Positions 19,415 through 56,319 of a DNA stretch of 64,000 nt are shown here, one piece after another; positions within the stretch are counted from its first letter, which is position 1; the number at the start of each line of letters is the position of its first letter. The DNA is from Rariglobus hedericola (GTDB lineage Bacteria > Verrucomicrobiota > Verrucomicrobiia > Opitutales > Opitutaceae). A model generated the notes under the pieces. It made no database searches and was not told where the DNA came from. It was given only the letters and a program-made list of their open reading frames with translations. The stretch spans positions 922,501 to 986,500 of the forward strand of contig NZ_VMBG01000002.1 in assembly GCF_007559335.1 (NCBI RefSeq), given 5' to 3'. The translations under genes and the position numbers were made by a program.

Positions 19415-19459
19415 TGCGTTAACTTGCTTAAGTGGCGTGCAATCTGCATATGCAGGGTA

Positions 19460-28684: not shown

Positions 28685-30568
28685 CTAAGGTTTCAGCACC
28701 GTCACGGCGAGCACGCCGAGAGTCGTGGAAAGCGTGGCGTCGACGGACACTTCGAGGCTGTCGACGATCTTGTCGGGCGACGGATTGATCCATTCGAGCG
28801 TGTAGAGATAGACGTGTCTCGGCAGATGGCCGGCCTCCTCGCTTTCCATGATAGGCGCCATGCGTGCGCCAGGGAAATCCATGTGCGGGAAATCGGGCCA
28901 CCAGTCCTGAATGTTGGGAGTGACGGCGTCGGTGGTCTGTTGCGAGGGGTTGTAGTCGGGCGGTGGCTGACCGAGGGAAACCAGCGGCACATTTCCGAGG
29001 CAGGTCTTGCGATTGAGGAAACGGTAACGGGCGAAGGGATGCAGAAATTTCGCGTAACCGCAGCCGTGGAGGATGTAGACGGCACGGACTTTTTGTTTGA
29101 TCGGGATGATCAATGTGTCGGGCAATTTTTGAGAGTTCCCCGTGGTGTTGACCGCCGAGTGGAAAACAATGGCTCCGCAATCCGAGCGGCGCGGGCCGCC
29201 AAGGATGTTAAACGGCACGCCATGGATTTCGTGAGGGCCGGGGGGGAATTGTTTGAGCGGCAGATCGCCGAGCCAGCCGCGGCGAAAGTTGAGCGGACGG
29301 TTTACAAGCGTTCCCAGATCAATCGGCGCGAAACGCGGGCGTTCGGACAATGATGCTTTTGCTGCCAGCGGGTAGGCCATGCGCAGGCAGGATTCGAGTG
29401 CGCGTGCGATCTCGGCGGGAGGCTGGAGTTTTCGGCTGGCCGTGTGTGACGCGATCGAGGGGTCTTCCTTTGGTTCAGGAGATGTATCGTTGAGGACTGC
29501 CGGGGGCCGAGTGGAGTTGCGTGCTATGAACTGCGACTGGATGAGCACGGAGCAGGGTGGGGGCAGGATACCTAGATTTTTTTTCTTTCGGGTCGCGCGC
29601 TGGGCCAGATTGAAAGCGGTTTCCTGCAAGAGTGCCACGTCGATGGTCAGGCTGGTGACCGGAATTGTGGCGTGTGCCGGAGATTTAGAGGCGCCGATAA
29701 ACAGGAGCGACAACTCGGCGGGCACGCGCCGTCCTTTCTGGTGTAACTGTTCCTGCAGCAACTGGACGTTGTAATCCAATCCGGAGAACACGATCAAAGC
29801 GGTGATTTCCCTCCATGAGTTGACCAGCAGATCGGCGACCTCGACGGCTTCCTCTTTCAGGCGCGCATTCGTTTGCAGGTAGATGCGACTGGCGGATTTA
29901 TTGAGTTGGTTACGCCGGCATATCTGCTCCCAGCCATAAAGCACCTCAATGGCTCCGGGATTGGTGGGCGGTGCGGTGACGAAACCTATTTCGCGATGCC
30001 CCAGCTTGAGCAGGTGGTTGATGGCGATTTCCAGATCATGAAGATTGTCACTGTTAACCGAATAAATGGCGGCCGACGACTGGCCGATGCCAACCACCGG
30101 TATGCCGTGTTTGAGCAGACGGGCGGCAATCGGTTCCCACAACGATACGGGCGCCACATAGGGCGGATCGAAGATGACGGCCTCGGTGTCGCGGCTATCC
30201 AGACGGTCGAGTGCCAAGGCAGCTTCGTCGGCGGATTGCCAGGTGTGCACAACGAGTTTGACGCCCATTTCCTTGGCGACGCGCTTGTAGCTCGGGAGAT
30301 GAACGGATCGTTGGGCAATCACCAGATGGCAGGTGAGACCGGCGTCGATGCGGGTGCTGGCGGCGACCGTGAGCTTGTAGCCTTCACGCTCGACGCGCCC
30401 CTCCGATATGAGACGGGCCATCGCGCGATTGAGTGCGTAGTGTTGAATGCCGAGCTGCACGGCGAGCGCACGTTCTGAAGGCAGGCGGGTGCCGGGTTTT
30501 TGGGCGGAAGTATCCAGCCATTCGCGCAGGCGGGTATCGGCTTCGTTAACAAGACGGCCAAAGGACAT
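28685..30568 (-). CDS. GntR/LacI-type sugar regulator with C-terminal beta-sandwich domain (paralogue 1)
   Basis: 627 residues from the ATG at 30568. Residues 1-75 are a GntR winged helix (LPSERALAVQLGIQHYALNR, AMARLISEGRVEREGYKL). About 80-360 resemble the LacI/GalR periplasmic-binding sensor (HGIPVVGIGQSSAAIYSVN, HLLKLGHREIGFVTAP), the AraR-like arrangement. After a linker, about 395-627 form an extra domain (NFRRGWLGDLPLKQ, AVYILHGCGYAK, NIQDWWPDFPHMDFP, YLYTLEWINPSP) that looks like a beta-sandwich ligand-binding module and is shared with the regulator at 46336-48222. A palindrome ten bases before the start suggests autoregulation. It is divergent from the GH94 gene. Confidence 0.88.
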   Translation of the reverse strand: MSFGRLVNEADTRLREWLDTSAQKPGTRLPSERALAVQLGIQHYALNRAMARLISEGRVEREGYKLTVAASTRIDAGLTCHLVIAQRSVHLPSYKRVAKEMGVKLVVHTWQSADEAALALDRLDSRDTEAVIFDPPYVAPVSLWEPIAARLLKHGIPVVGIGQSSAAIYSVNSDNLHDLEIAINHLLKLGHREIGFVTAPPTNPGAIEVLYGWEQICRRNQLNKSASRIYLQTNARLKEEAVEVADLLVNSWREITALIVFSGLDYNVQLLQEQLHQKGRRVPAELSLLFIGASKSPAHATIPVTSLTIDVALLQETAFNLAQRATRKKKNLGILPPPCSVLIQSQFIARNSTRPPAVLNDTSPEPKEDPSIASHTASRKLQPPAEIARALESCLRMAYPLAAKASLSERPRFAPIDLGTLVNRPLNFRRGWLGDLPLKQFPPGPHEIHGVPFNILGGPRRSDCGAIVFHSAVNTTGNSQKLPDTLIIPIKQKVRAVYILHGCGYAKFLHPFARYRFLNRKTCLGNVPLVSLGQPPPDYNPSQQTTDAVTPNIQDWWPDFPHMDFPGARMAPIMESEEAGHLPRHVYLYTLEWINPSPDKIVDSLEVSVDATLSTTLGVLAVTVLKP

Positions 30569-30578
30569 AGGGGTATAA

Positions 30579-30588
30579 TGTTTAAACA
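30579..30588. promoter_or_regulatory. Candidate operator, regulator promoter
   Basis: Perfect palindrome TGTTTAAACA; read towards the regulator gene it is TTGTTTAAACAT. It lies 10 bases upstream of the regulator start and overlaps its predicted -10, which fits negative autoregulation. Confidence 0.6.
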
Positions 30589-30664
30589 AGGGAGTCGCAG
30601 CCGGTGTCAACGCGCGCGAAGGAATTGTTTATGCTATTATGATTTCACGTAGGCGGGCGGCCGG

Positions 30665-30676
30665 TTGTTCAAACAA
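30665..30676 (+). promoter_or_regulatory. Candidate operator upstream of the GH94 operon
   Basis: TTGTTCAAACAA, inverted half-sites TTGTT/AACAA. The identical 12-mer, in the same orientation relative to the gene, precedes the esterase gene at 54237-56156, and an 11/12 match precedes the SGNH gene. It resembles AraR-type operators in form. Confidence 0.6.
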
Positions 30677-30964: not shown

Positions 30965-33364
30965 ATGAATTACGGACGCTTTGATTCCGCCGCCCATGAA
31001 TACGTAGTCACCCGTCCCGACACGCCGCGGGCCTGGTCCAACTACCTCGGTTCTCGTCGCTACGGCGGCATCGTGACTAACAATGCCGGCGGTTATTCCT
31101 TCACCCGTTCGCCGGCCGAAGGTCGCATCCTCCGTCATCGCTACAACTCCGTTCCGGCGGAGCAACCCGGACGTGTTTTCTATCTGCGCGATCGGGACAG
31201 TGCCGATTACTGGTCGTCCGCCTGGCAACCGGTCGCCAAGCCGCTGGACCGCTATCGCACCGAGACACGCTTCGGCCCCGGTTACGCCGATATCACCAGT
31301 GATTACGCGGGAATCAAAACAGAGTCGCTCTACTTCATTCCGCTGAATCAGGAATTTGAATACTGGCGTTTACGCGTCACGAACACCGGCACCAAGCCCC
31401 GCCGTCTGAGCGTATTTGCCTGTGCCGAGTTCACCACCGAGTGGAACCTGCTCAACGACCTGCTTAATCTTCAATACACCCAATATATCGGCGAGGCCGC
31501 CTGGCGTGATGGCTTCATCCGCGCTTCGTCCTGTTCGCGTCTCCCCGAGGATAAAGCCAACTTCGCCAATCGCGACCAATCGCGCTGGTGGTGGATGACT
31601 CTCGTCGGCGGCGACATCGCCGGCCACGACTGCGACCGCGATTCCTTTCTCGGTTCTTATCGCAGTTACGACCGGCCGCTTGCAGTCGAACGCGGCACCT
31701 GCGGCAACAGTGCCGGTTTTTCTGACAACACCTGTGGCGTCATCCAGAGCGACATCGAGCTTGCGCCCGGTGAAACACGCGAGGTGCTCGTGTTGCTCGG
31801 CATCGGTAAAAGCGAACGCGAAGGCCGTGCCACGCGCCGCAAGTTCGGCACCGCCGCCGCGTGCGAAAAGGAATTCACCGCGCTCAAGGCTCATTGGCAC
31901 GCATTGCTCGAAACGCTCCATGTTGAAACGCCCGATGCCGACTTCGACCACATGACGAACACGTGGGGCGCCTACAACGCGCTCGTGACACTCGAGTGGT
32001 CGCGCTCGTGCTCGCTCGTTTACACCGGTGAACACCGCGACGGTTTCGGTTTCCGTGACACCGTGCAGGACATGCTCGGGGTGGTCGCGATGGTGCCGGA
32101 CATCGTGCGCGAACGCCTCGTGCTCATGCTCTCGGGCCAGGATGCTTCCGGCGGCGCGCAGCCTGATGTGCGTCCGTGGTTGCATGTGCCGGGCCAGATG
32201 AAACCGACTCCGCCGGGAAATTATCGCAGCGATGATTGCCTGTGGTTTTTCAATACGATCCCTGCCTACGTCGCCGAGACGGGAGACAGCGCTTTTTATG
32301 ACGAAGTCGTGCCGTTTGCCGATAAGGGCAAGGCGACTGTCCTCGGTCATCTGCGCCGTGCGCTGGAGTTCAACCTCGCGCGCACCGGTCGCAACGGTCT
32401 GCCCTGCGGACTGCTCGCCGACTGGAACGACTGCCTTAAGCTCGGTTATAAGGGCGAGTCCGTCTTCGTCGCGTTCCAAGTGCGTCTCGGTCTTGCGACC
32501 TATGCGGAGATCGCCGGTGCGAAAAAACTCACGCGTGAACGCTCTTGGGCACTGGCCGAACTCAAGAAAATCGACCGTGCCATCACTCGAACCTGTTGGG
32601 ACGGCAAGTGGTTCATCTGGGCCATCGCCGAGGACGGAACGGTTTACGGATCGGCCAAGGCGAAGGAGGGTCGCATTTATTTGAATACGCAGTGCTGGGC
32701 GATTCTTTCGGGCTATGCCGACACGAACCAGGCGAAGAGTGCGCTGGCCTCCGTGAAGAAGCTGCTCGCCTCGGACTACGGTGTGGCGATGTGCGCTCCG
32801 CCGTTTGCGAAGACTCCGGTCAAGGTCATGCGCGCCGTGCTCTTTAATCCGGGTAACAAGGAAAACGCCGGTATCTTCTCCCACACGCAAAGCTGGGCGG
32901 TGCTCGCCGAGATCATGGCCGGGGACGGCGATCAGGCCTATGACTACTACCGCTCCTTCATGCCCTCGGCGCAAAATGATCAGATCGAGAAGCGCGAGAT
33001 CGAACCGTTCGCGCATTGCCAGAGCACCCACTCGCAGTTCTCGAAAAAGTTTGGCATGTCACGCGTGCCTTGGTTGTCGGGCACCGCGTCCTGGGCGCAT
33101 TACACGGCGACGAATCACATTCTTGGACTGCGCCCCGAGACCGGCGGCTTGCGCATCGATCCGTGTATTCCGAGCACCTGGCCCGGTTTTAAGGCGCGCC
33201 GTCTGTTCCGTGGCCGCGAAGTGCACGTCGAGGTGCGTAATCCGAACGAACTTAATCGCGGCGTCTCTCACCTGCTCGTCGATGGCGAACGCATCGAAGG
33301 TAACTTGCTCCCCTTGTCGGCACTCAACGCGGTTACACGTGTGATCGCAGTCATCGGAAATTAA
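30965..33364 (+). CDS. Glycoside phosphorylase of family GH94 (cellobiose-phosphorylase-like)
   Basis: 799 residues, cytoplasmic (no signal peptide), the size of cellobiose and chitobiose phosphorylases. The N-terminal beta-sandwich starts MNYGRFDSAAHEYVVTRPDTPRAW-like, with RDSADYWSSAWQPV. The catalytic (alpha/alpha)6 barrel has GFGFRDTVQDMLG, SGGAQPDVRPWLHVP-type text, the general acid in YRSDDCLW (D423-D424) and LLADWNDCLKLG. It would phosphorolyse an imported beta-linked disaccharide to a sugar 1-phosphate. The substrate (cellobiose, laminaribiose or other) cannot be fixed from sequence. It leads an operon with the deacetylase and beta-helix genes. Confidence 0.88.
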   Translation: MNYGRFDSAAHEYVVTRPDTPRAWSNYLGSRRYGGIVTNNAGGYSFTRSPAEGRILRHRYNSVPAEQPGRVFYLRDRDSADYWSSAWQPVAKPLDRYRTETRFGPGYADITSDYAGIKTESLYFIPLNQEFEYWRLRVTNTGTKPRRLSVFACAEFTTEWNLLNDLLNLQYTQYIGEAAWRDGFIRASSCSRLPEDKANFANRDQSRWWWMTLVGGDIAGHDCDRDSFLGSYRSYDRPLAVERGTCGNSAGFSDNTCGVIQSDIELAPGETREVLVLLGIGKSEREGRATRRKFGTAAACEKEFTALKAHWHALLETLHVETPDADFDHMTNTWGAYNALVTLEWSRSCSLVYTGEHRDGFGFRDTVQDMLGVVAMVPDIVRERLVLMLSGQDASGGAQPDVRPWLHVPGQMKPTPPGNYRSDDCLWFFNTIPAYVAETGDSAFYDEVVPFADKGKATVLGHLRRALEFNLARTGRNGLPCGLLADWNDCLKLGYKGESVFVAFQVRLGLATYAEIAGAKKLTRERSWALAELKKIDRAITRTCWDGKWFIWAIAEDGTVYGSAKAKEGRIYLNTQCWAILSGYADTNQAKSALASVKKLLASDYGVAMCAPPFAKTPVKVMRAVLFNPGNKENAGIFSHTQSWAVLAEIMAGDGDQAYDYYRSFMPSAQNDQIEKREIEPFAHCQSTHSQFSKKFGMSRVPWLSGTASWAHYTATNHILGLRPETGGLRIDPCIPSTWPGFKARRLFRGREVHVEVRNPNELNRGVSHLLVDGERIEGNLLPLSALNAVTRVIAVIGN

Positions 33365-33387: not shown

Positions 33388-34359
33388 ATGAAAACATCCG
33401 CACTCATTACTTGTCTGGCTCTCGTGCTTAGTCCGTTCGCTGCGTTTGCCGAGACGGGCACCACCCGCATCGCACAATGGAAGGACGACAAGAAAAGCCC
33501 CTTCATGCTGATGTTTGACGACGCGTGTCCTTCGCAAGTCGGCAACGCCGTGCCTGAACTTAAGAAACGCGAACTGGCCGCGACATTTTATAATTTTCCA
33601 GCGGCCGGTCATTACCAGGGAAACAAAGCGTTTTGGGAAACGACGGTGCCGGCGATCCCCGGATTCGTTTACGGAAACCACACGATCAATCACAAGGGTT
33701 TCTCGTCCGTGACTGACGCGGAAAAAGAAATCGCTGATGCAAACGCCACGATCATGCGCCTGTTTCCAGGGAAATCGCCGCGCCTGGTTTCCTATGCTGA
33801 TCCGGGCGGCGTGAAGAACGCCATCAGCGGCCCCGAGATCGATTCGATCTTGGCCAAGAACAACCTCGTGCGCCGTCCTGAATTCGGCGGGCATGGCGGT
33901 GGTATTGCGTATCGCACCGCGAGCGACGTGCTGGCTGCGGTTGACCGTGCGATCGGCAAGGGCACGCAGGAATACATCATCTTCCATGGTGTCGGTGGCG
34001 ACTGGATCGTTTTCCCGCAAGCGGAGTTCACCCAGCTGCTCGATGGGTTGGTGACTCGTCGCGACTCGCTGTGGATCACCGATACCATTTCGGTCCACAA
34101 ATATGAAACCGCCCGCGCCAAGGCTCAGGTGAAATTCAAAAACGACGGTCCGGCGCAAATCCGGGTATTACTCACTGCCGATGTGAACCTCGCGCTCTAT
34201 GACCAGCCGTTGACGCTGATCACGCAGGTGCCTGCCGCTTGGAAAAAATGCCAGGTCGTCCAAGGCACCTCGAAGGTCACGGTTCCCGTTGAAAACGGCG
34301 AGGCCCGCTACGATGCGGTGCCCGGCGCGACGATGATCACGCTGACGCCAGCAGGCTGA
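33388..34359 (+). CDS. Secreted polysaccharide deacetylase (NodB/CE4-like)
   Basis: 323 residues with a signal peptide (ALITCLALVLSPFAAFA). The NodB domain shows the Asp pair in LMFDDACPSQVG and the metal histidines in YGNHTINHKG, and later IIFHGVGGDW. A roughly 75-residue C-terminal beta-rich tail follows the barrel (QVKFKNDGPAQIRVLL). It would act in the periplasm or outside the cell on acetylated polysaccharide. It lies 23 bases after the GH94 gene. Confidence 0.82.
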   Translation: MKTSALITCLALVLSPFAAFAETGTTRIAQWKDDKKSPFMLMFDDACPSQVGNAVPELKKRELAATFYNFPAAGHYQGNKAFWETTVPAIPGFVYGNHTINHKGFSSVTDAEKEIADANATIMRLFPGKSPRLVSYADPGGVKNAISGPEIDSILAKNNLVRRPEFGGHGGGIAYRTASDVLAAVDRAIGKGTQEYIIFHGVGGDWIVFPQAEFTQLLDGLVTRRDSLWITDTISVHKYETARAKAQVKFKNDGPAQIRVLLTADVNLALYDQPLTLITQVPAAWKKCQVVQGTSKVTVPVENGEARYDAVPGATMITLTPAG

Positions 34360-34381: not shown

Positions 34382-35791
34382 GTGAAAACTTGTTTACGGG
34401 TCGGGGTGCAATCACTGCTCTGGATTTTGGCCTTCGCGTGTGCGGGCGCGAGCAAGGCTGCGGAGAGTTCTGATTTGCCCGGAGATTCTCTGCAGCCGGT
34501 GGTGGCGTATCAGCACCCGCGGTCTTTGGCGCGTTCGGCGGTTTATCGTGTCTGGGCCAACGGCCAGCCGGTCGAGGTGTTGCAGGGCGGCAATGCGGAT
34601 TTCGTTACGTTTGAATCGGACGGACCGGTGGAATTGCGCATCGAAGCGACCGGCCTTATGGCCAAGGCGACCGTGAGACCGCTTTCAAGAGGCGTGGCTT
34701 TTGAAATCAATGACCGCGTGATGACCTTCAGGATTGAGAAACCTCAATATCTGGGCGTCTCCGTTCCGGGGCTCATTGATCTCTATATTTACGCCAACGC
34801 GATCGAGCGAAACCGGCCGGCGAAATCAGATCCGGGTCTTCACTATTTCGCAGCGGGGCAGGTTTACGAAATCGGTGATTTTAAACTGAAATCGGGCGAG
34901 ACGTTTTACATCGAAGGCGGCGCGGTCGTGAAAGGAAATCTGCATGCGCCGAAGGCCTCGCACGTGCGCATCGCGGGCCGCGGAATACTGGATGGCAGTT
35001 ACTACAATTTCGCGAAGAAAGAGGAGAAGCGGTCGATCGTGTTCGAGGAGTCTCAGGGTATTTTGATCGAAGATATCATCATGATTCACCCGTCGTCGTG
35101 GATGATTGTGATCGGCGCGAGTCGTGATGCGCACATCCGGCGCGTGAAACAAATCGGCTCAGTCATGTCCACCGACGGAGTGGATATTTGCGGCTCACGT
35201 GACGTGCTCATCGAGCAGTGTTTTTTTCGCAACGACGACGACAACATCGCCATCAAATCCATCGCACGAAAAGGTTATCTGCCTTGGGTGGGTAACATTG
35301 AAAACGTGACCGTGCGCGACTGCGTTTTCTACAAGGGACAGCCTGGGAATTCCATGGAGATTGGCTTTGAGCTGAGCGCGGACCGCGTGAGCAACATCGT
35401 CTTCGAGAACATTGATGTGGTGACCAAGGGTGGGGACGGCGCGGTGTTTGCCATGCACAACAGCGACCGTGCGCTCATTGAGAATGTTCGCTGGGAAAAC
35501 ATTCGAGTCGAAAGTTACTGGGGGAAGTTGATCGACCTCCGGGTTTTCAAGAGCCGCTTTACGAAGGATGAAGAGCGTGGCCAGATTCGAGGTGTGACGT
35601 TTAAGAACATCCGCGTGAACCATCCGCCCGGGCACAACGGCTATGTGGTTTCGTTGTTGGGCGGTGCGTCCGCCGACAAACCTGTTCAGGGCGTGGTCAT
35701 CGAGGATTTGTATTTAGGTGAGACAAAGGTCACCACGATTGAACAACTCGAACTCCTGACCCGGCATTGCGACGAGGTCATCTTCAAGTGA
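34382..35791 (+). CDS. Secreted GH28-like parallel beta-helix protein
   Basis: 469 residues from a GTG at 34382, 22 bases after the deacetylase, with a signal peptide (SLLWILAFACAGASKAA). A beta-sandwich of about 100 residues precedes a right-handed beta-helix with GRGILDGSYYNFA, STDGVDICGSRDVLIEQ and RNDDDNIAIKS, which match the polygalacturonase NTD and DD motifs. The GHG and RIK motifs of true GH28 enzymes are not seen (GQPGNSMEIGFE stands in place of GHG), so the substrate and mechanism may differ. It is strongly similar to the partial gene at 62954. Confidence 0.75.
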   Translation: MKTCLRVGVQSLLWILAFACAGASKAAESSDLPGDSLQPVVAYQHPRSLARSAVYRVWANGQPVEVLQGGNADFVTFESDGPVELRIEATGLMAKATVRPLSRGVAFEINDRVMTFRIEKPQYLGVSVPGLIDLYIYANAIERNRPAKSDPGLHYFAAGQVYEIGDFKLKSGETFYIEGGAVVKGNLHAPKASHVRIAGRGILDGSYYNFAKKEEKRSIVFEESQGILIEDIIMIHPSSWMIVIGASRDAHIRRVKQIGSVMSTDGVDICGSRDVLIEQCFFRNDDDNIAIKSIARKGYLPWVGNIENVTVRDCVFYKGQPGNSMEIGFELSADRVSNIVFENIDVVTKGGDGAVFAMHNSDRALIENVRWENIRVESYWGKLIDLRVFKSRFTKDEERGQIRGVTFKNIRVNHPPGHNGYVVSLLGGASADKPVQGVVIEDLYLGETKVTTIEQLELLTRHCDEVIFK

Positions 35792-35891: not shown

Positions 35892-36010
35892 CTTTGTGAA
35901 ATTTTTCGCTCTGTAGGGGGAATAGCCTATCAACCGCGACCAAGTCGGTTCATTTGAGATTCAGTAAAGTTTTACCCCTGCGGTTCCCCTCCGCTCTTAC
36001 CCCTGAAATT

Positions 36011-39000
36011 ATGAATGTGAAATTCCGGCTCGTTATTTCTGCGCGCACGCTTCGTGGACGCCTGTCGATGGCCTCAAGCGTATTGGCGTCGATCAGTGGC
36101 CTGGCGCTTTTTTCGACCTCGGTTCAAGCCGCGACGTTTACCTATACCGGGAATGGCACGACTGCGGATGTCTGGTCGGCGGGCACGCGTTGGACTGGTG
36201 CGGCTGCCCCAAGCAGTGCGACGGATACGACCTTGGTTTTTAGCGGAGCCATTAACGCCAATACGACCACTACAAATGACATAGCCGGACCTTTCTTACT
36301 GAATGCGCTGACTTTGAGTGGATCTGGCTCCCAATTTAATAATCGTATTTACACGATTGCGGCCGGGGCCATCGGCAGCCCGTCCTTTACCTTTTCAGTC
36401 GATGGTGCCAACGCGCCGGTTATAAATCTCAATTCTAACAATACCGGTCTGGGCACAAATATCAGCTACACGATCGGGGTTAATGGAGCTATTAATGGGG
36501 GCTCCCTTGTGGTGCAGGGAAACGGTAATTCCACCTTTAATTATAGTGGCATTTTAAGTGACGGAAACGGTGCAGCGACTCTCACAAAAAACGGCACCTC
36601 AACCATTGCTTTAGCCGGCACGAATTCTTACACCGGCGGCACGATCTTAAATGCCGGCGGGTTAAGTCTCAATAATGCGTCGGCATTGGGTAACGGAGGC
36701 GCGCTTACCATTAACGGCGGCTCTCTGAGCAACACGAGTGGATCGGCGATCACGTTAAATACCCATGCTGAAAGCTGGAACGGAGATTTCACTTTTGGCG
36801 GCAACCAGTATGCCACCACCAGCGCGTTGAACCTAGGCACCGGGGCGGTTACCTTGGGCGGTGATCGCACTCTTACCATCTCTGCCACCAACAACGGGAG
36901 CAATGCGCTCACCGTGGGTGGTGTGATTGATGACGGAGTGAACACGTATGGTTTGACCTTGGCCGGAAGTGCCACGGCAGGCACGGGAACCCTCATCTTG
37001 AACGGCGCCAATACTTACGGCGGACCGACCACCATCAATGCCGGCGTTCTTCAGTTGGGATCCTTGGCGTCTCTCGGCGGATCGGGTGCGGACACGTTGG
37101 TTAATTCCGGAGGCACGCTTTCCACAGCCTATGCTTTGGACGCCGCGACCTTTGCGCGTCTGAATACTCTGTCTTCCGGCACGGTGGCGATGGCCGGCGT
37201 CACCAGTAGCACCAATCTGGATTTGACCGGACGCAATGTCAGTCTCGGAGCGAGTGGTGTTTCGGCCAGCACGTATTCGGGAATCCTGACTCCGAACGGA
37301 ACGACCTATCGTCTTGGCGGCGGGTATGGGACCTTGAATTTTAATTCCCTGTTGAGCGGATCTCGAAACCTGGTTGTGGGTGGCGGTGGAACTCCGGGAA
37401 CGATTAACCTTGGGGTGGCCGGAACCTACAACGGTGGAACTACAGTGATCGGCGGGGTGGGCACTTCAGCCAGTGTTCTGCAAACGAATCTGACTGGAGC
37501 TACGACACCTTTTGGATCGGGAGCTATTTCGCTGAACAACGGTGTTCTCGGTTTCGGCACGGGTCCCACTGCTTTGACCACCGGCCAAAACATGGCGGTC
37601 TCCCTCGGAGCCGTTACCTTTCAAGGTCAGAACGAAATTAAGTTGGCCAAGGGATCATCCACACAGCCCCTGCCTGTTTCGGTTACGATTGATTCATTGA
37701 ACCGCACGAACGGTGTTTTGTTTATCACGCCGAGCGCGGGGGCCAATCTGGGTGTCAGTGAAAAGGTGTTTGTGACCAATCCCGGGTCGATCTCGCTGAC
37801 CCCGGTCAATGGCATGATTACGGGGACTGTTATTGATGGGACGAACAAGACGTTTCTGACCTATGGAGCCAATGGTTTTGTGGATGCAGCGACTACCGGG
37901 ACGTATGGATCGAATAATATTGTCGGTCTTAGTGCAGACCCGGCCACGACTGTCAGGGCCTATGCTTTGCGCATTACGACCACGCCTCTCTCAAGCAGTG
38001 ACAACTTCATAATTGGTGCGGGCGGATTTATCGCAAACACCGGCATGAATAATGCCGTCGGAACTTTGAACTTTGGCTCGAACCATGCCTTGATGGGCTT
38101 TTTTGGTGTCAGCGGTGACGGCAACGGTCTGGCGATTAATAGCACGGGGGGAGCGACTTTTTACGGAGTGGGCACCAGGCTTGTGGGCGCCAATCTGAAT
38201 ATCAGCGGAGGGATCAATTTTGCCGGTGGCACTTGGACGCTGAACAGCCAGCCGACGGGTAATGAAAGTTTCCAAACCACGAACCCGAATGCGGTGACTA
38301 TTTCCCGAGGGGCCACAGTTACTAATTCTCAAGGCTCGAAGTTCACCCTGGCCAGCCTCTCGGGAGACGGCCTTCTGACGAGTAACACGAACGACGGCGG
38401 CGGCAGTGTCTTTCAGGTTACCATCAACGGCCTCAACGATACGGGAACGACGACCTTTTCGGGTGGGATCACCGATGCTTTTCAGTCCACCCTGAATATC
38501 ATTAAAACCGGCGTAAACACGCAGGTCTTGAGCGGTGTGAACACCTATCGTGGCGGCACGACAGTAAATGCTGGAACACTCAAGGGGACGCAGACCAGCG
38601 GCACGCCGTTCGGAACGGGTAATGTCACGCTTGGCGGAGGTAAGCTCAGCATCGCTCCTTACGGTAGCGGAGCGAACGTCGCGGTGAGCGGCGCAAATGC
38701 GGTGGCCGGGTCCACATTCATCTTCAATGCGAATTCCCAGCTGAATTTGGACAAGGGCGCCAACACCAGCCTTACCTACACGGCGGGCAATAGCGCAGCA
38801 GCAGCTAACAGCGTGCTGGTTCGCGGAACCAACGGCACTTTGATCATCACTCCGGCCAGCGGGACGGCGGCTCTCGGCACTGCGACCGGTGAGAAGTTCA
38901 TCGTAAACGGTGGCGTCGCCACCACCAACGGTATCGCGAGTGCTGCGATCATTGGACAGGATTCCAACGCGAACAAGGACGGCACGTTCCTAGCTTACAA

Positions 39001-46335: not shown

Positions 46336-48222
46336 ATGGCCACAGGCAAGCTGGTAAGCGACGCGACCCGACAGCTGAACGACTGGCTGGAGGCAGGCAA
46401 ATTCAAGGAGGGGGATCGCCTGCCCTCGGAGCGCGCCATCGCCAAGGAGCTTGGGGTGAAATATTACGGACTGAACCGTGCGATGGGCCGGTTGATTTCG
46501 GAAGGCCGGGTGCTTCGTGAAGGTTACCGTCTCTCGATCGCGGTGGCTCCACGCGTTTCGCGCCGTATGGTTTTCCATCTGATTGTCGCACGCCGCACGC
46601 ATCACCTCGCAAGTTATCGGAGGGCGGCCGCCAACTTGGATATCGAGCTGGTGGTGCATGATTGGGTCGCGGCCGAGGAGGTCGCTTCCATTCTGAATCA
46701 ACTGGATTCAAAAGAGACCGCCGGTGTGGTCTGTGATCCGCCTAGCGAATCCGTGCACGCTACCGATTGGCTGCCCGCTGCGCTCCAACTTATCCGTCAT
46801 GGTATTCCAGTGGTCTGCACCGGAGGCTGGGGATTGAACGGCGAATTGTCCGCCGTGGGCGCCAATGTAAATAACGGCGTTACTCTGGCACTTTCGCATC
46901 TTCTGGGGCTTGCTCATCGCGAGCTGGCGCTGGTTACGTTTCCCGCCGGAAGTGAGCGCGAGATGAGTGTGTTAGATTACTGGAACCGGCTTTGCGTGCG
47001 CAACCAGCTGGGTTCCTCTACCGAACGCATTTTGCTGCAGCCCTCGTGGCTGACGGAAGAGCGGGATATCGATGACTTGGTGGAGTTGCTGGTCACCGGT
47101 CCGTGGAATAATGTAACGGGTCTGGTCATCCTCGTCGGCTACAATACGGACATCCAATCTTTGTTCACCAAACTTGCCCGCCGAGGACGGCGGGTGCCCG
47201 AATCACTGTCGGTGGTGGTCGTGGGTAATGCGAAGGCTTTGGCGTCCGCCGAGCCCCGCGTCAGCGCGGCGGGTTTTGACATGGTGCTTTGGTTTGAACT
47301 GACCTTCGACCTCCTTTTGCGCGAAGTTCACGAACAACGTCAGTTGGGCGTGCCGCGTGAGCCGTCGAGTATTCAAATGATGCCACGCCTGGTGGTGCGC
47401 GAATCGACGCGGGCATTGGAAGGAGCGGAGCTTGGCCCGAAGGCGGCCGCGTTCACGAGCGAATCGGCGGCTGTCACCAAGGACATCGCGCATTTGGAGC
47501 GTCTGGCAAAGCAGCCGTATCCGCTCGCTGCGAAGGCATCGCTTTCGGAGCTTCCGCGGTTTACCCCGGTGGATCTGCGTCCTTTCGTCAATCGTCCGCT
47601 AATTTTCCGCCGCGGCTGGCTGGGCGACATTCCGTTGCGCTGCCTCGCGCCGGGCACGCACGAAATTCAGGGCGTGCCATTTGAAATTCTTGGAGGCCCC
47701 AACCGTGCGAATGGTGGCGCGGTTATTTTCCAGTCGACGACCAATACTACTGGAAATGCGCGAAAGCTTCCGGATCGCCTGGTCATTCCGATCAACGGTC
47801 CGGTCGAGGCCGTTTATATTTTGCACGGATGCGGCTACGCAAAACCGATGCAGCCTTTCGCGCATTACCGTTTTCATGCGAATAAGCGCGTGATCGGAAA
47901 CGTTCCGTTGGTCAGCTTGGGGTGGATGCATGCGGCGGCGAGTGGTGATCCCGGTTTGGATAAGGAAAAACCGAGCGCCAATATCCAGGACTGGTGGCCT
48001 GATTTTCTTCACCAAGATTTCCCCCATGCGCGTGTGGTTCCCTTGTTGGAAAACGATGAAACCAACCATGTGAACCGGCATGTTTTTCTCTATACGCTGG
48101 AGTGGATCAATCCCACGCCGAAGCAGCCGCTCACGCACATTGAAATCCAGGCTGATCCCACGGTGCCCACGACGTTGGGCCTGCTGGCGATAACGGTGGT
48201 GAGGCCTCGCACTCCGGTTTAA
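46336..48222 (+). CDS. GntR/LacI-type sugar regulator with C-terminal beta-sandwich domain (paralogue 2)
   Basis: 628 residues from the ATG at 46336. The architecture is the same as the regulator at 28685-30568: GntR winged helix (LPSERAIAKELGVKYYGLNR, AMGRLISEGRVLREGYRL), a LacI-like sensor (IRHGIPVVCTGGWG, LSHLLGLAHRELALVTF) and a C-terminal domain with RRGWLGDIPLRCLAPGTHE, AVYILHGCGYAK, NIQDWWPDFLHQDFPHA and LYTLEWINPTP. The linker block YPLAAKASLSELPRF is also shared. The recognition helices are similar but not identical, so overlapping operators are possible. Its own gene has no clear copy of the TTGTTYAAACAW motif. Confidence 0.88.
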   Translation: MATGKLVSDATRQLNDWLEAGKFKEGDRLPSERAIAKELGVKYYGLNRAMGRLISEGRVLREGYRLSIAVAPRVSRRMVFHLIVARRTHHLASYRRAAANLDIELVVHDWVAAEEVASILNQLDSKETAGVVCDPPSESVHATDWLPAALQLIRHGIPVVCTGGWGLNGELSAVGANVNNGVTLALSHLLGLAHRELALVTFPAGSEREMSVLDYWNRLCVRNQLGSSTERILLQPSWLTEERDIDDLVELLVTGPWNNVTGLVILVGYNTDIQSLFTKLARRGRRVPESLSVVVVGNAKALASAEPRVSAAGFDMVLWFELTFDLLLREVHEQRQLGVPREPSSIQMMPRLVVRESTRALEGAELGPKAAAFTSESAAVTKDIAHLERLAKQPYPLAAKASLSELPRFTPVDLRPFVNRPLIFRRGWLGDIPLRCLAPGTHEIQGVPFEILGGPNRANGGAVIFQSTTNTTGNARKLPDRLVIPINGPVEAVYILHGCGYAKPMQPFAHYRFHANKRVIGNVPLVSLGWMHAAASGDPGLDKEKPSANIQDWWPDFLHQDFPHARVVPLLENDETNHVNRHVFLYTLEWINPTPKQPLTHIEIQADPTVPTTLGLLAITVVRPRTPV

Positions 48223-48306: not shown

Positions 48307-48330
48307 GCGGGCGGTGATACGCCTCTTAAT

Positions 48331-48340
48331 TGTTCAAACA
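48331..48340 (+). promoter_or_regulatory. Candidate operator upstream of the SGNH esterase gene
   Basis: TGTTCAAACA within TTGTTCAAACAT, an 11/12 match to the site upstream of the GH94 gene and in the same orientation relative to the gene. It lies about 160 bases before the start codon, after the terminator of the preceding gene. Confidence 0.6.
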
Positions 48341-48498
48341 TCTGCATAAGGATCGCTTGGGGTTCGGGAGGTTTCCGTTGCCGAAGAGGTGATCGCCTAT
48401 GGATTAGCTTGGATCCCTTACCCCCTGTATTCCCCTTTTTGCCTGAGTGCAGTGCTTCCTGCTTCTGCGCCCACAGTCGGTATGGCTCAAAACCCGTT

Positions 48499-49275
48499 AT
48501 GACCCCTCGAATGAAATCTCTCTGCGGCGTTATCGCTGCGCTGTCTTTGGTGTTGTCGGTGCCAATGGCGGTTCATGCCCAGCCTGCCGGCGGGTTTGAT
48601 CCGAAGACGTTGGCCCAGGCGCCCCAAGGCAAGCCATGGGAACCGGCTTGGGGCTTCTGGGCCCAGGCGACGCCCGAATCGTGGCAGCAGACGCATTGGG
48701 GCTTCGTTAACCAGGCAAAGAAGGGCGGGGTTGATGTGCTGTTCCTGGGTGACTCGATCACCAAGGGCTGGGCGGGAGCCGGCAAAGAAGTCTGGGCGCA
48801 ACATTACCAGCCGCTGAAGGCACTCAACATCGGTATTGGCGGAGACACTACACGCCAGACCTTGTGGCGTCTTGAAAACCAGGCGATGGAAGGCATCCAG
48901 CCCAAGGTCGTGGTGCTGATGATCGGCGTGAACAACATTTTCACAGCCACGGGCACCGACGAGGAAATCGCCCAAGGCATCGCCGAGATCATCAAGCAGA
49001 TCCACGCCAAGCGTCCGGCGGCCAAGGTTCTCCTGACGAGCGTATTGCCTTTGGGTAATGCCGGGCAGAGTGCGCGGGCGGCGAAGATCAACCGGCTGGT
49101 GGCCGCGAAGCAGCCATCGTTTGTGCGCTTTCTGGATCTGACCGGAACGTTTCAGGGAGCGGACGGCAAGGTCGTCGCGGAGCTTTACACGGCCGACTTG
49201 GTGCACCTGGCCAAGCCCGGCTACGAGGCCTGGGACAAAGCGATGCGTCCCGTGTTGATTGCGATGCTGCGCTAA
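48499..49275 (+). CDS. Secreted SGNH/GDSL-family esterase
   Basis: 258 residues from the ATG at 48499 (an ATG at 48511 is also possible), with a signal peptide (GVIAALSLVLSVPMAVHA). SGNH blocks are visible: VLFLGDSITKGW (Ser), IGIGGDTTRQTLWRL (Gly), LMIGVNNIF (Asn) and the Asp-x-x-His in ADLVHLAKPGYEAW. The sequence resembles PAF-acetylhydrolase-type and carbohydrate O-acetylesterases. In this setting, removal of acetyl groups from plant polysaccharide is likely. It lies 66 bases before the transporter gene. Confidence 0.9.
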   Translation: MTPRMKSLCGVIAALSLVLSVPMAVHAQPAGGFDPKTLAQAPQGKPWEPAWGFWAQATPESWQQTHWGFVNQAKKGGVDVLFLGDSITKGWAGAGKEVWAQHYQPLKALNIGIGGDTTRQTLWRLENQAMEGIQPKVVVLMIGVNNIFTATGTDEEIAQGIAEIIKQIHAKRPAAKVLLTSVLPLGNAGQSARAAKINRLVAAKQPSFVRFLDLTGTFQGADGKVVAELYTADLVHLAKPGYEAWDKAMRPVLIAMLR

Positions 49276-49341: not shown

Positions 49342-51300
49342 ATGAATGAGTCTCCGCTAAGACCAATTGCCGCATCTGGAATCCAGCCTGCCAAGACTTG
49401 GCACTGTGGAACGCTGACCTACACCAAGGCGGGGATCATCACGCTGTTCACCTTCCTGTTGTTCGGGAGTTTCTCGTTCAATCTGATGATGACGGTGGTG
49501 CCGAGCATCCTGCCGTTGAAACTCAAGAGCCTCGGGGCGTCTGATGTGCTGATCGGCATGCTGCTCACCAGTATCTTTCCGATGTTCGGCTTGGTGATCT
49601 CGCCGTATCTGAGCTTCAAGAGCGATTATCTGAGAACGCGGTGGGGACGCCGCAAGCCGTTCTTCTTTTTCACGCTGCCGTTCGTCACGCTGAGCATTCT
49701 GGCGCTCGCATTTTCCGAGGACATCGCGCGTCTGATGCAAAGTTCCGGTTTGCTCGCCAACCTGACGCCAACTGCCGCGGCGATCGGTGTCATGAGCGTG
49801 TGTATCGTGGCGTTTCAGTTCTCCGACGTGGTGATCGCCTCAGTTTATAATTACATTTTCAACGACACGGTTCCCGTCGCGCTGACCGGCCGGTTTTTCG
49901 GTCTGATGCAGATGGTCGGAGCCTCGATCGGCTTCCTCTACAATTATTTCATCTTCAAATACGCGGAGAGCCACATGAAGGAAATCTTCGTGGCGACCGC
50001 GCTGGTGTATTTTGTCGGCATCGGGTTGCTCTGTATCTTCGTGAAAGAGGGCGAGTATCCGCCCGTTAACGAAAAGGAGAAGGTTAACACGCGGGGTCTG
50101 GCGGGGCTCAAGACGTTCTTCCGCGAAAGCTTCTCACATAAGTTTTATTGGACGAAGTTCATCTACTCGATGTCGCCTGCGCTGGGTGCGGCGCTGTGGC
50201 CGTTCGGCATTTTTTATTACAAGGAGATGGGCCTGTCGCTCGATTACATCGGGAAGGCCAGTGCCGTGACCGCACTGGCGGGCATGATCGCCGCCTACTT
50301 TGCCTCGGTCTATATCGATCGCTGGCATCCGCTGCGCATTCTGGCCTATTCCGGCGTGTTCGCGGCCACGCTTTCGGTGGGCGGCTGGGTCTGGGCTTTT
50401 GTGACCCTGCCACCGGCGGCATTCTTCTGGCTGAACATGCTGGGCGGCGGGTTGATCGGCGTATTTCACGGTGCGCTGTGCGGAGTGGCCGCCGTGCCGT
50501 TTGACATGCGCCTGCAGCCCAAGTCGCGCTACGGCCAGTTTTGCTCGGCGCAATCGATCGTCACGAATGCCTGCAAGATGGTCGCCGGTGCGGCGGCCGG
50601 ATATTACTTCTACGCGCTTAAAACGTATTTTTTCAGCGGCTCGGACTACGCCTATCGTTTCAACTTCGTGTGGTCGGCGGTGGCCAGCATCGTGATGGGT
50701 TATGTCATCTACAGTCTCTACCGCCAGTGGCAGGCTCTCGGTGGCGACCTTCGTTTTAATCCGCCTGCGCCGTGGTCCGAAAAAGGCTACGAAGAAATGG
50801 AGCGGCCGTTGTTTGTGGGCACCCAGGTGCGCTGGCTCAATTATGCATTGAGTATGACGAATCTGGTGATGTTCAGCACCCTAGCGTTCATGATTTGGGT
50901 GGCTTACTGGCTGTGGCACATCGACTGGACGACGGCCTTCCATGTTTACGTGTTCGGATTGGTGCCGGTGTCGGTGCTGCTCTATCTGTGGTGGGTCAAA
51001 GTGGAGCGCGCGATCAAGGCCGATGTGGCTCGTTGCGTGGCGGGCGAATCACCGAAGGACGGCATTCCGCATCATGGTATCTTTTTCGTGAAAGCCATCG
51101 TGTTGCTCCTGGGCATGCCGGTGAAGATCGGCCTCATGATCGTGGCCATGCAGGAAGGGCTGCACAATGGTGTGATCGTGTTCGGCATCGGGGCGCAGGT
51201 GGCCGATCTCGGCGTGATCCTCGCGGTGTTGATTTTGCGCCGCATGGAGCGCGGCAATGATCCAATGCTTAACTACGACGGACGCAAAGTGGTCGCCTGA
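49342..51300 (+). CDS. Major facilitator superfamily sugar transporter (GPH-like)
   Basis: 652 residues, longer than a standard 12-helix MFS protein because of an added C-terminal region with further membrane segments. The core has the loop motif SDYLRTRWGRRKPFFF between helices 2 and 3, typical of glycoside-pentoside-hexuronide carriers, and a repeat of the fold from about residue 260 (MSPALGAALWPFGIFYY). It would import the oligosaccharides released by the surface enzymes. It follows the esterase gene and ends at a bidirectional terminator. Confidence 0.87.
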   Translation: MNESPLRPIAASGIQPAKTWHCGTLTYTKAGIITLFTFLLFGSFSFNLMMTVVPSILPLKLKSLGASDVLIGMLLTSIFPMFGLVISPYLSFKSDYLRTRWGRRKPFFFFTLPFVTLSILALAFSEDIARLMQSSGLLANLTPTAAAIGVMSVCIVAFQFSDVVIASVYNYIFNDTVPVALTGRFFGLMQMVGASIGFLYNYFIFKYAESHMKEIFVATALVYFVGIGLLCIFVKEGEYPPVNEKEKVNTRGLAGLKTFFRESFSHKFYWTKFIYSMSPALGAALWPFGIFYYKEMGLSLDYIGKASAVTALAGMIAAYFASVYIDRWHPLRILAYSGVFAATLSVGGWVWAFVTLPPAAFFWLNMLGGGLIGVFHGALCGVAAVPFDMRLQPKSRYGQFCSAQSIVTNACKMVAGAAAGYYFYALKTYFFSGSDYAYRFNFVWSAVASIVMGYVIYSLYRQWQALGGDLRFNPPAPWSEKGYEEMERPLFVGTQVRWLNYALSMTNLVMFSTLAFMIWVAYWLWHIDWTTAFHVYVFGLVPVSVLLYLWWVKVERAIKADVARCVAGESPKDGIPHHGIFFVKAIVLLLGMPVKIGLMIVAMQEGLHNGVIVFGIGAQVADLGVILAVLILRRMERGNDPMLNYDGRKVVA

Positions 51301-54236: not shown

Positions 54237-56156
54237 TTACCAACGATCCGAGCGGAACGGACTCGCGGGCAGGCCGGTGGGGCCGGCGAGATTGCAGCCC
54301 TCGGGGTTGTCGGCCCAAGCGTAGCGCACGGCGGCGGGACGGGTGACGGCGGGATGGCTTACGACTACATCCGCTCCGTCGATACGTGCGGTAGCGGGGT
54401 GGAACACGCGGTCTTCTCCGGCGATGAAGAATAGGCGCGGGGGTTGACCGTCAGTGGTGGTGAGACGGGCGCCGGCATCGTTAAAGCGGCAGCGGGCGGA
54501 GCCATCGGCGTCGATCACGAGCGAGGCGAAGAGCGGGCCGTTGGGGACGAGGTCTCGGCCGTAAGTGCGCGCGAGCGCGCTGGTGGCGAGACGTTCGCCG
54601 ACAGGAACTTTGTCCTTCGGGTGAATATCGCCGGCTTCACCGACGTCGATGGTGATGGCCATGCCGGTGTGGGGCAGGGTGAGTGCGGCGGCCTGCGCTT
54701 CGCGGAAGTGGGCCCAGTGACTGGCGGCTTGGTATTCCTTGGCGGCTTGGAAACCGGGCAGCTGCACCAGATGGAAAGCGAGGTCGGCCTGTCCCCATTG
54801 GCGGCGCCAATCGAGGATAAGGTCCTGCATGAGCCGCTTGTAAATCGCGGCTTCGCCGGCGTTGCCTTCGCCTTGATACCAGATGACTCCGCGCAAGGCG
54901 TAGGGCACGAGCGGCCGGAGCATGTTGTCGAAAAGCATATTCGGCGAGTTGCGCTCACCGTGGCCCATGAGATGCGTCTCGGTCACGAGTCCCAGGTTGT
55001 GTTCGCACTGGTAGCGCCAGTCGCCGGCCAGCGGAAGGTGGGCGTCGGGCGCGTCGGCGGGGCCGATATGCAGGGAGCTGTCGGCACCGATGATGCCGCC
55101 GTCATAGATAAATGAATACGCGCGCACGGCGATGAGCAGCGTGCGGCCGGTGACGACGGCAGCGGGGACGGTGTAAACGCGCGGGGTGTTCCAGTATTGA
55201 TCTTCCTGGCCCTTGCCCGTGCGGCCGACTTCGATGCCGTTGACGTAGGAGATATCCTGTTTGTCGACGCCGCCTAAATGCAGCTGCAGTTCGCGACCGA
55301 CCCAGGCCTGCGGGATCTCGACGGTGCGGCGGAACCAATAGACGCCCGAATGTTTATGGCCGGCGGATTGCCATGTGCCGGGAAGACTCATCGTCGGCCA
55401 GGTGGCGTCTGCGAAATCGGTCTGGTGCCAGCCGAGGGCGAGGCTCGTGTTGCCGGGGTCTTTCGGGGTGCCGCTCACGCGACCATCTGATCCGGGGGAT
55501 TCCATGAGCGCCCAGCGATCATCGCTCCAGGCCTGCGCCTCGTAACGGGCGAGCCAGTCGCTCACCTCGGGGTTAAGCGCGAGCGCGGGACGGCTGAGCC
55601 AACTCTGGATGATGCTGCCGCCCCACGAGGACGAGATGACACCGACGGCTACGCCAAGTTCGCTATGAAGACGACGGGCGAAGACGAACGCGGCGGCGGA
55701 GAAAGTCCCCGCGACCTCGGGCGTGGCGACCTGCCAGTTGCCGCCCACGCTATGTTGCGGTCCGAGATGGGCGCGGGTGGGGACGGTGAAAAAACGGATC
55801 TCGGGGAAGTCGGCCGTGGCGATGACTTCGGCGGTGAGTGGAAGACAGGCGTTGAGCCGCATCTCCATGTTGGACTGACCGGAGGCGAGCCAGACCTCGC
55901 CGACGAGCAGGTCGTGAACCGCAATACTCTCGCCGGTTTTGACGACGGTCACGGTCAGCGTGTGAGGACCACCGGCGGGCAGCGCGGGTAATTGCACGAA
56001 GAAACCGCCCGCGGCGTTGCTGAGCGTGCAGGCGGTGTTGCCGGCGAGCGCGACACGAATTTTAACCAAGGGCGGAGCCGAGCCCCAAACCGGGAGGGGC
56101 CGGTCGCGTTGCAACACGGCGTGATCTTGGAAAAGCGAGGCGAGTTGAAGGCTCAT
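54237..56156 (-). CDS. Sialate O-acetylesterase-like / CE20-type carbohydrate esterase
   Basis: 639 residues, without an obvious signal peptide. The SGNH Ser is in GEVWLASGQSNMEMRL, the Asn-block region is MLRPLVPYALRGVIWYQGEGNAG and the Asp-His pair is in VGEAGDIHPKDKVPVG. A beta-sandwich insertion near residues 255-330 (WYWFRRTVEIPQAW-type, LHLGGVDKQDISYVNG) is usual for the family. Known relatives deacetylate sialic acid or, in CE20, xyloglucan. With a GH74 gene in the region, acetylated xyloglucan is the most likely substrate, by inference. The 12-base operator-like motif lies upstream. Confidence 0.85.
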   Translation of the reverse strand: MSLQLASLFQDHAVLQRDRPLPVWGSAPPLVKIRVALAGNTACTLSNAAGGFFVQLPALPAGGPHTLTVTVVKTGESIAVHDLLVGEVWLASGQSNMEMRLNACLPLTAEVIATADFPEIRFFTVPTRAHLGPQHSVGGNWQVATPEVAGTFSAAAFVFARRLHSELGVAVGVISSSWGGSIIQSWLSRPALALNPEVSDWLARYEAQAWSDDRWALMESPGSDGRVSGTPKDPGNTSLALGWHQTDFADATWPTMSLPGTWQSAGHKHSGVYWFRRTVEIPQAWVGRELQLHLGGVDKQDISYVNGIEVGRTGKGQEDQYWNTPRVYTVPAAVVTGRTLLIAVRAYSFIYDGGIIGADSSLHIGPADAPDAHLPLAGDWRYQCEHNLGLVTETHLMGHGERNSPNMLFDNMLRPLVPYALRGVIWYQGEGNAGEAAIYKRLMQDLILDWRRQWGQADLAFHLVQLPGFQAAKEYQAASHWAHFREAQAAALTLPHTGMAITIDVGEAGDIHPKDKVPVGERLATSALARTYGRDLVPNGPLFASLVIDADGSARCRFNDAGARLTTTDGQPPRLFFIAGEDRVFHPATARIDGADVVVSHPAVTRPAAVRYAWADNPEGCNLAGPTGLPASPFRSDRW

Positions 56157-56307: not shown

Positions 56308-56319
56308 TTGTTTGAACAA
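56308..56319 (-). promoter_or_regulatory. Candidate operator upstream of the O-acetylesterase gene
   Basis: Read towards the leftward gene the sequence is TTGTTCAAACAA, identical over all 12 bases to the site upstream of the GH94 gene. It lies about 150 bases before the start codon. Confidence 0.6.

Follow-up and report, generated by a model that had tools for sequence, protein, structure and literature searches.

Regulators of the GntR-LacI type in Rariglobus hedericola that end in a conserved beta-sandwich domain, and a candidate operator in their carbohydrate gene cluster

A stretch of 64,000 nucleotides from Rariglobus hedericola (contig NZ_VMBG01000002.1, positions 922,501 to 986,500; this whole stretch is called the window) encodes two regulators, R28 and R46, in which a GntR winged helix and a LacI-type sensor are followed by a C-terminal domain (CTD) of about 218 residues. 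The best overall explanation, held here with middling confidence, is that these proteins regulate genes of carbohydrate-active enzymes (CAZymes) and carry an enzyme-type beta-sandwich as a second input. From sequence comparison, it is very probable that proteins of the R28 and R46 type regulate polysaccharide-degradation genes via a predicted operator. The suggestion that the CTD binds a ligand is made with slightly less than middling confidence.

The first-pass annotation of the window had proposed two fusion proteins, at 28685..30568 and 46336..48222, each with the motifs RRGWLGD, HGCGYAK, NIQDWWPDF and LYTLEWINP. Both proteins were confirmed with all four motifs; R28 lies on the minus strand, which the annotation had not stated. 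R28 (28685..30568, minus strand) has 627 amino acids and begins with an ATG at 30568, a start also used by the relative L011. Its frame is open to the stop at 28685-28687, and the plus frame over the same stretch is broken by stops. An in-frame TAG flagged in the genome match of R28 is this terminal stop, the match extending one codon beyond. The winged helix of R28 (residues 1-66, 30371..30568, minus; Pfam GntR PF00392, E 1.8e-10) contains the recognition helix YALNRAMARL. It is followed by the LacI-type sensor (about residues 77-356, 29501..30340, minus; Pfam PF13377, E 2.6e-14), with boundaries transferred from the structure model of the paralogue R46, and by the CTD (residues 410-627, 28688..29341, minus), assigned from alignments and a score of 229 bits against a domain profile that contained R28's own row. 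R46 (46336..48222, plus strand, 628 amino acids) has the same architecture, with a winged helix at residues 1-66 (46336..46533, plus; PF00392, E 3e-10, and model) and a sensor at residues 78-353 (46567..47394, plus; PF13377, Peripla_BP_3, E 8e-8, model and Foldseek). In its model a disordered linker (369-382) and two helices (385-404) lead to the CTD (residues 406-624, 47551..48207, plus; AlphaFold2 and domain profile). Both Pfam families score above cutoff in both proteins, in agreement with the GntR and LacI-like parts of the annotation. By Pfam, the N-terminal helix-turn-helix (HTH) of LacI-type regulators is not in R28 or R46, which have GntR winged helices. The full-length R46 model matched LacI-family cores with a best Foldseek E of 1.4e-14.

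R28 and R46 are 45% identical over 634 aligned columns, end to end. The genome of R. hedericola encodes four CTD regulators, all of them full-length fusions, the two others at 54% and 40% identity; in a four-copy alignment the identity to R46 was 59, 64 and 52% in the CTD and 46, 53 and 40% over the full length. Domain-only searches with narrow and wide profiles found no further CTD copy in this genome, and no enzyme-borne copy either; the domain is present on 4 of the 36 LacI-type sensor matches of the genome. Two different CTD regulators about 23 kb apart also occur on a single contig in each of two Verrucomicrobia genomes, namely L017 and L018 (QAYZ01000016.1) and L016 and L021 (JAFKMU010000056.1). 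Such pairs, like R28 and R46, may cooperate.

The CTD is the most constrained part of the fusions. Conservation was assessed in 23 full-length fusions, consisting of R28, R46 and 21 of the 22 full-length fusions from the peptide scan described below; L021, a close relative of L018, and the two other own-genome paralogues were left out. The CTD had 33 invariant columns of 218 and a mean pairwise identity of 48%, the winged helix 8 of 66 and 45%, and the LacI part 2 of 284 and 30%. The annotation had raised the possibility that one protein could read two sugars; such strong constraint points to an important function common to all paralogues and not to a different second sugar for each. Invariant polar and aromatic residues of the CTD are, in R46 numbering, N419, W428, H497, Y511, D552, W553, E589 and W590. 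The guess that the extra domain is a beta-sandwich is borne out by the AlphaFold2 model of the R46 CTD, which is confident (predicted local distance difference test, pLDDT, 89.9; predicted template modelling score, pTM, 0.89).

Neither the Pfam and NCBIfam families nor the PDB sequences matched the domain significantly. Pfam had no match in the last 220 or so residues of R28 or R46, and a Pfam-A search with 21 CTD members gave none at E <= 0.05, the only two families listed having E values of 0.1 or worse. NCBIfam models did not match the CTD of R28 or R46, and the best E across 31 members was 0.06. PDB sequences had no link to a 21-row CTD profile; a 31-row profile gave two chance-level rows only, and two single enzyme-type copies gave one such row apiece.

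The CTD is not confined to fusions of the R28 type. When 84,980 prokaryote genomes were scanned for two conserved peptides, at least 27 loci were found, a lower bound since the single scan used two peptide patterns, and all 27 were in Verrucomicrobiota or Lentisphaerota. A LacI-type sensor precedes the CTD in 24 of them (22 full-length by alignment to R46, and two cut by contig ends and judged by eye). The other three were a CTD-only fragment at a contig end and L033 and L035, in which the CTD ends beta-helix-repeat proteins. Searches with a CTD profile gave matches at E <= 0.001 in at least 75 of the 387 phylum genomes and at least 22 of the 150 genomes of the own family, where 10 were strong (best E under 1e-80). 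In the class, at least 14 of 384 genomes had a match at E <= 1e-15. Because only the top candidates were scored in each genome (up to seven in the phylum and class searches and up to 20 in the family search), these tallies are lower bounds and a lack of match is no proof of absence.

From 20 stretches that were fetched, 22 open frames with a CTD were obtained, and 20 were scanned with Pfam, leaving out a 134-residue fragment in L112 and one further frame in L099. The hosts included glycoside hydrolases (GH) of family GH2, GH39-like proteins with LamG, GH42 proteins, right-handed beta-helix proteins, an AraC-type and a LacI-type regulator, together with a stand-alone domain and proteins without a Pfam match. 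Most enzyme hosts start with a signal-peptide-like stretch, as judged by eye, and the glycoside hydrolases and beta-helix proteins that bear the domain are apparently secreted. A profile built from 25 GntR-type CTDs only detected all 25 copies on other hosts, with E values no worse than 2e-8, and picked up none of the 525 decoys, so that the homology across hosts is independent of circular training. These profile matches establish that the CTD of the regulators is homologous to a domain of apparently secreted enzymes and beta-helix proteins. Among the checks proposed in the annotation, the search in secreted enzymes found the domain on beta-helix, GH2, GH39-like and GH42 proteins of Verrucomicrobiota and Lentisphaerota. 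AraC and LacI-HTH regulators with the same domain, and a shared operator candidate, go beyond what had been annotated. In other families of the phylum a CTD-like domain turns up repeatedly as well, in large GH2 proteins among others (L100-L110 and more), with up to eight matches per genome, and this unnamed domain may deserve its own Pfam entry.

By Pfam and profile matches, the CTD is present in regulators on three DNA-binding chassis, namely GntR-LacI, LacI-HTH and AraC. The LacI-HTH regulator L156 (PF00356 and PF13377) ends in the domain, as do the AraC-type proteins L096, L154 and L155 (PF12833, two also with PF02311). In a tree of 50 selected rows, all 31 regulator CTDs formed one clade (96/86), within which the AraC and LacI-HTH copies were grouped (90/88); the beta-helix copies were placed next to the regulators, with the GH copies separate (100/100). 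The simplest reading of these sequences is one recruitment of the CTD from a secreted protein, followed by transfer between chassis, a history that falls short of proof because the tree was rooted at the midpoint and has several long branches (L157, L156, L155, L111, L096, L103 and L101).

A candidate operator was found by comparing the intergenic regions of R28 and L011, which have two palindromes in common, TTGTTYRAACAA. The window contains four such sites. The first, ATGTTTAAACAA (30578..30589), lies 9 bp upstream of the R28 start codon and has a counterpart in L011. The second, TTGTTCAAACAA (30665..30676), lies between R28 and a divergent GH94 gene and is an exact match. The third, TTGTTCAAACAT (48330..48341), is upstream of GDSL esterase and major facilitator superfamily (MFS) genes, and the fourth, TTGTTTGAACAA (56308..56319), is an exact match upstream of a minus-strand SASA esterase gene. 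Four sites at no more than one mismatch compare with 0.35 expected in the 64-kb window, two of the four having defined the motif. Three exact sites occur in the own 4.15-Mb genome, two of them inside the window. A relaxed form, WTGTTYRAACAW, has nine sites in this genome (control 0), and eight of them fall inside C2:953078-1037828, an 85-kb carbohydrate cluster. Relaxed sites lie before or between genes for GH94, GDSL, SASA, GH28 (two genes, one of which shares its site with a BNR-repeat gene) and further BNR/Sortilin-repeat proteins. The C1 site, which is the ninth, stands before a BNR/Sortilin-repeat gene with CBM96; on its opposite side the frame called for the neighbouring gene, of uncertain start, overlaps the site. 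A consensus scan for promoters and terminators between R28 and the GH94 gene gave no match.

The palindrome also accompanies related regulators in other genomes. Regulators with an NRAM or NRAL recognition helix had a site within 400 bp upstream in 8 of 16 cases and within 400 bp downstream in 4 of 16, with 0 of 16 in the coding control; this count left out L010, with 48 bp upstream only, and includes the related pair L016 and L017, whose sequences over this stretch are 54% identical without gaps. Among CTD regulators with an NRAA or NRAV helix, 0 of 9 had an upstream site. The NRAA-helix regulators (L024-L027 and L029-L032) form a second class of CTD regulators, with promoters that lack the TTGTTYRAACAA site. 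Ten genomes with NRAM-type regulators contained 41 sites, of which 31 were within 30 kb of a CTD match. The expected number was 1.6, which is generous because the windows were not cut at contig ends; three of the 31 (G471 contig C289) depend on a weak 28-residue CTD match, and the clustered sites are not independent because G595, G612 and G675 are one genus. Genomes of the same genus had 9, 10 and 7 sites with CTD matches, versus 1 and 0 in two genomes without, which are smaller (3.1-3.2 Mb) and may miss the whole cluster. Six genomes with only the other regulator class, assigned by frame length and the loci seen, had 0-2 sites, and thirteen genomes outside the genus in which no CTD regulator was found had 0-3.

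An alternative for these sites is that the palindrome belongs to another LacI- or AraC-type regulator of the same carbohydrate cluster, where the CTD regulators merely reside. The clusters do contain many other LacI and AraC regulators, and genomes without a detected CTD regulator still have a few palindromes. We nevertheless consider this improbable, given that the palindrome stands in half of the NRAM/NRAL-class promoters, from different genomes, versus none with the other recognition helices, and given the contrast in site number within one genus. The palindrome also has the layout of the AraR box of Bacillus subtilis, TTGT-N4-ACAA. AraR is reported to use two boxes in three of its five promoters, with the consensus AT(T/A)tGTaCGTAcaa(A/T)T (PMC4218819).

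Under the preferred explanation, R28 and R46 would be cytosolic one-component regulators of polysaccharide-degradation genes. Footprinting by sequence comparison and genome-wide clustering suggest the predicted palindrome as the binding site for the winged helices of R28 and its relatives of the NRAM class. The genes would probably be repressed until an imported sugar is sensed, as in AraR, and the LacI-type sensor, the most variable part, may set the releasing sugar of each paralogue. The CTD, most simply recruited from a secreted protein, would most likely have as its ligand a carbohydrate or a sugar-like compound that is common to the pathway, and would act as a second input through which DNA binding is gated. 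Ligand binding is proposed because the domain occurs on enzymes, is modelled as a beta-sandwich and keeps polar and aromatic residues invariant, and because most of the regulators retain the classical sensor. Since the CTD varies much less than the LacI sensor, any second signal would be the same or similar for all homologues.

Several observations weigh against this explanation. No site was found upstream of R46 or L002, which also suits a palindrome owned by another regulator; R46 and L002 may use the same sites without autoregulation, or other sites. G075 and G574 have NRAM-type regulators yet 0 and 1 sites, none nearby. The closest fold to the CTD is that of the aziridine synthase AziU3/U2 (8gs1, 7wuw; 13-14% identity), and carbohydrate-binding module (CBM) structures gave middling structural Z scores of 9.6 and below (CBM8, CBM15, CBM29, CBM4 and CBM16). 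The constancy of the CTD is also expected of an oligomerisation domain.

The last point leads to the principal alternative, in which the CTD serves for oligomerisation, a role that the annotation had also named, or for DNA looping: it would join dimers across paired operators, in the manner of LacI tetramerisation, and sense nothing. The CTD lies 0-24 residues from the C-terminus in 31 of 31 regulators, whichever end carries the DNA-binding domain, it is constant where the sensors vary, and its chassis act as dimers. Sites are moreover paired at R28/GH94 (87 bp apart), at L011 (69 bp) and at C2:986882/986931 (49 bp). These spacings have no common helical phase, however, and the presence of the same domain on apparently secreted enzymes speaks against an oligomerisation role. 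Many of the invariants are also polar or aromatic and lie in loops and strands, which in our judgement is unusual for a pure interface. This alternative is considered unlikely, although less so than the others. The similarity to AziU3/U2 raises a further alternative, that the CTD is enzyme-like and converts or holds a small metabolite, as in trigger-enzyme regulators. A fold in common is not a function in common, and with the low identity and no sequence-profile link to any PDB chain, such a role is rated about as improbable as a foreign owner of the palindrome.

A missing effector arginine in the LacI-type sensor was also considered as a sign that sensing had moved to the CTD, and was rejected. 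At the position of the canonical effector arginine, R197 in LacI or R196 in PurR, none of the 23 fusion proteins has Arg. In the control, for which 30 of the 36 own-genome PF13377 matches were fetched, four of them with a CTD, Arg was found in 6 of 26 sensors without a CTD (L117, L118, L122, L124, L126 and L128) and was absent in 20. The loss is uninformative because regulators without a CTD mostly lack the arginine too.

The genes around R28 and R46 are largely of carbohydrate type. The GH94-family phosphorylase-like gene (30965..33364, plus; Pfam PF17167, E 3e-126; no signal peptide by eye) is divergent from R28, and GH94 genes are likewise divergent from related regulators in L011 (86% identity) and L013 (81%); it is a probable target. 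The next gene encodes a polysaccharide deacetylase-like protein (33388..34359, plus; PF01522), of which an 81% identical relative adjoins GH94 in L011, and by its spacing it is probably co-transcribed with GH94. It is followed by a GH28-family gene (34382..35791, plus; PF00295). Downstream of the latter, window positions 35954-42424 (plus) encode a 2156-residue protein with autotransporter-like repeats and a PEP-CTERM-like end, recognised by eye from motifs; this protein probably sits at the cell surface and belongs to the same cluster. Beyond R46, a GDSL esterase-like gene with an uncertain start codon (48409..49275, plus; PF13472) lies downstream of an operator candidate and is followed by an MFS transporter (49342..51300, plus; PF07690). 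The SASA-type carbohydrate esterase (54237..56156, minus; PF03629) also lies downstream of an operator candidate. A 339-residue protein without a Pfam match (53193-54212, minus) is 75% identical to L019:8666-9715, a neighbour of another CTD regulator, and is conserved in two CTD-regulator carbohydrate clusters. Elsewhere in the window (19424-21199, plus), a protein resembling NAD-dependent DNA ligase, judged by eye from motifs, has a hydrophobic, signal-peptide-like start and seemingly no C-terminal BRCT; it is possibly an exported or diverged second ligase.

Among known systems, AraR is the nearest in architecture, with a GntR winged helix followed by a LacI-type effector domain and with sugar-polymer genes under its control, and the full-length model matched the AraR effector domain (3tb6) with a Foldseek E of 6.8e-13. 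The annotation had held that the fusions exceed AraR, and this stands. AraR ends after the effector domain, whereas R28 and R46 add about 270 residues, made up of the linker, the two helices and the most conserved domain. AziU3/U2 shares the modelled fold of the CTD but is a Streptomyces biosynthetic enzyme and not a regulator. CBMs resemble the CTD in being beta-sandwiches, as judged from the model, and modules of carbohydrate-active enzymes, as the CTD is in relatives; the CTD differs in having no Pfam CBM match and in sitting in a cytosolic transcription factor.

Precedents exist in spirit only. The RsgI anti-sigma factors of Clostridium thermocellum sense polysaccharides via carbohydrate-binding-type domains; they are membrane proteins that expose the binding domain on the extracellular side, whereas the CTD is cytosolic and fused to a DNA-binding protein. 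The ASRAH domain (superfamily of the Anabaena sensory rhodopsin transducer, ASRT; DUF1362) is likewise a beta-sandwich, for which sugar binding has been proposed; like the CTD, it occurs both linked to secreted enzymes and in intracellular regulatory forms (PMC2739507). It is smaller (ASRT 14 kDa), and its intracellular versions are stand-alone and are set apart by its authors from one-component transcription factors (PMC2739507). ASRAH was not among the Pfam-A rows of the 21 CTD members, its model's presence in the Pfam copy used being unconfirmed, and no ASRAH or ASRT structure was among the 50 VIA-align rows listed for the CTD, a relation being still possible. Among the papers listed by searches of the open-access literature in PMC, none dealt with a GntR-LacI, LacI or AraC regulator with this CTD. 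As far as sequence comparison goes, R28 and R46 appear to be a variant of AraR-like and other one-component regulators, with a domain not found described.

Verrucomicrobiota are important degraders of complex polysaccharides, and to our knowledge little is known about the control of the genes involved. The present regulator family comes with a predicted operator and regulon that are directly testable, and an unnamed domain without a Pfam match connects enzyme-borne modules with cytosolic gene control. If the CTD binds sugar, two signals would be integrated in one protein. It is conceivable, although we favour it somewhat less than ligand binding as such, that the CTD is a portable C-terminal sugar-recognising sensor derived from secreted CAZymes, which in the cytosol supplies a shared second signal to the otherwise unrelated GntR-LacI, LacI-HTH and AraC regulators of polysaccharide-degradation clusters in Verrucomicrobiota. 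If this is true, its occurrence on AraC and LacI proteins would make it an add-on sensor for the phylum and a ready biosensor part.
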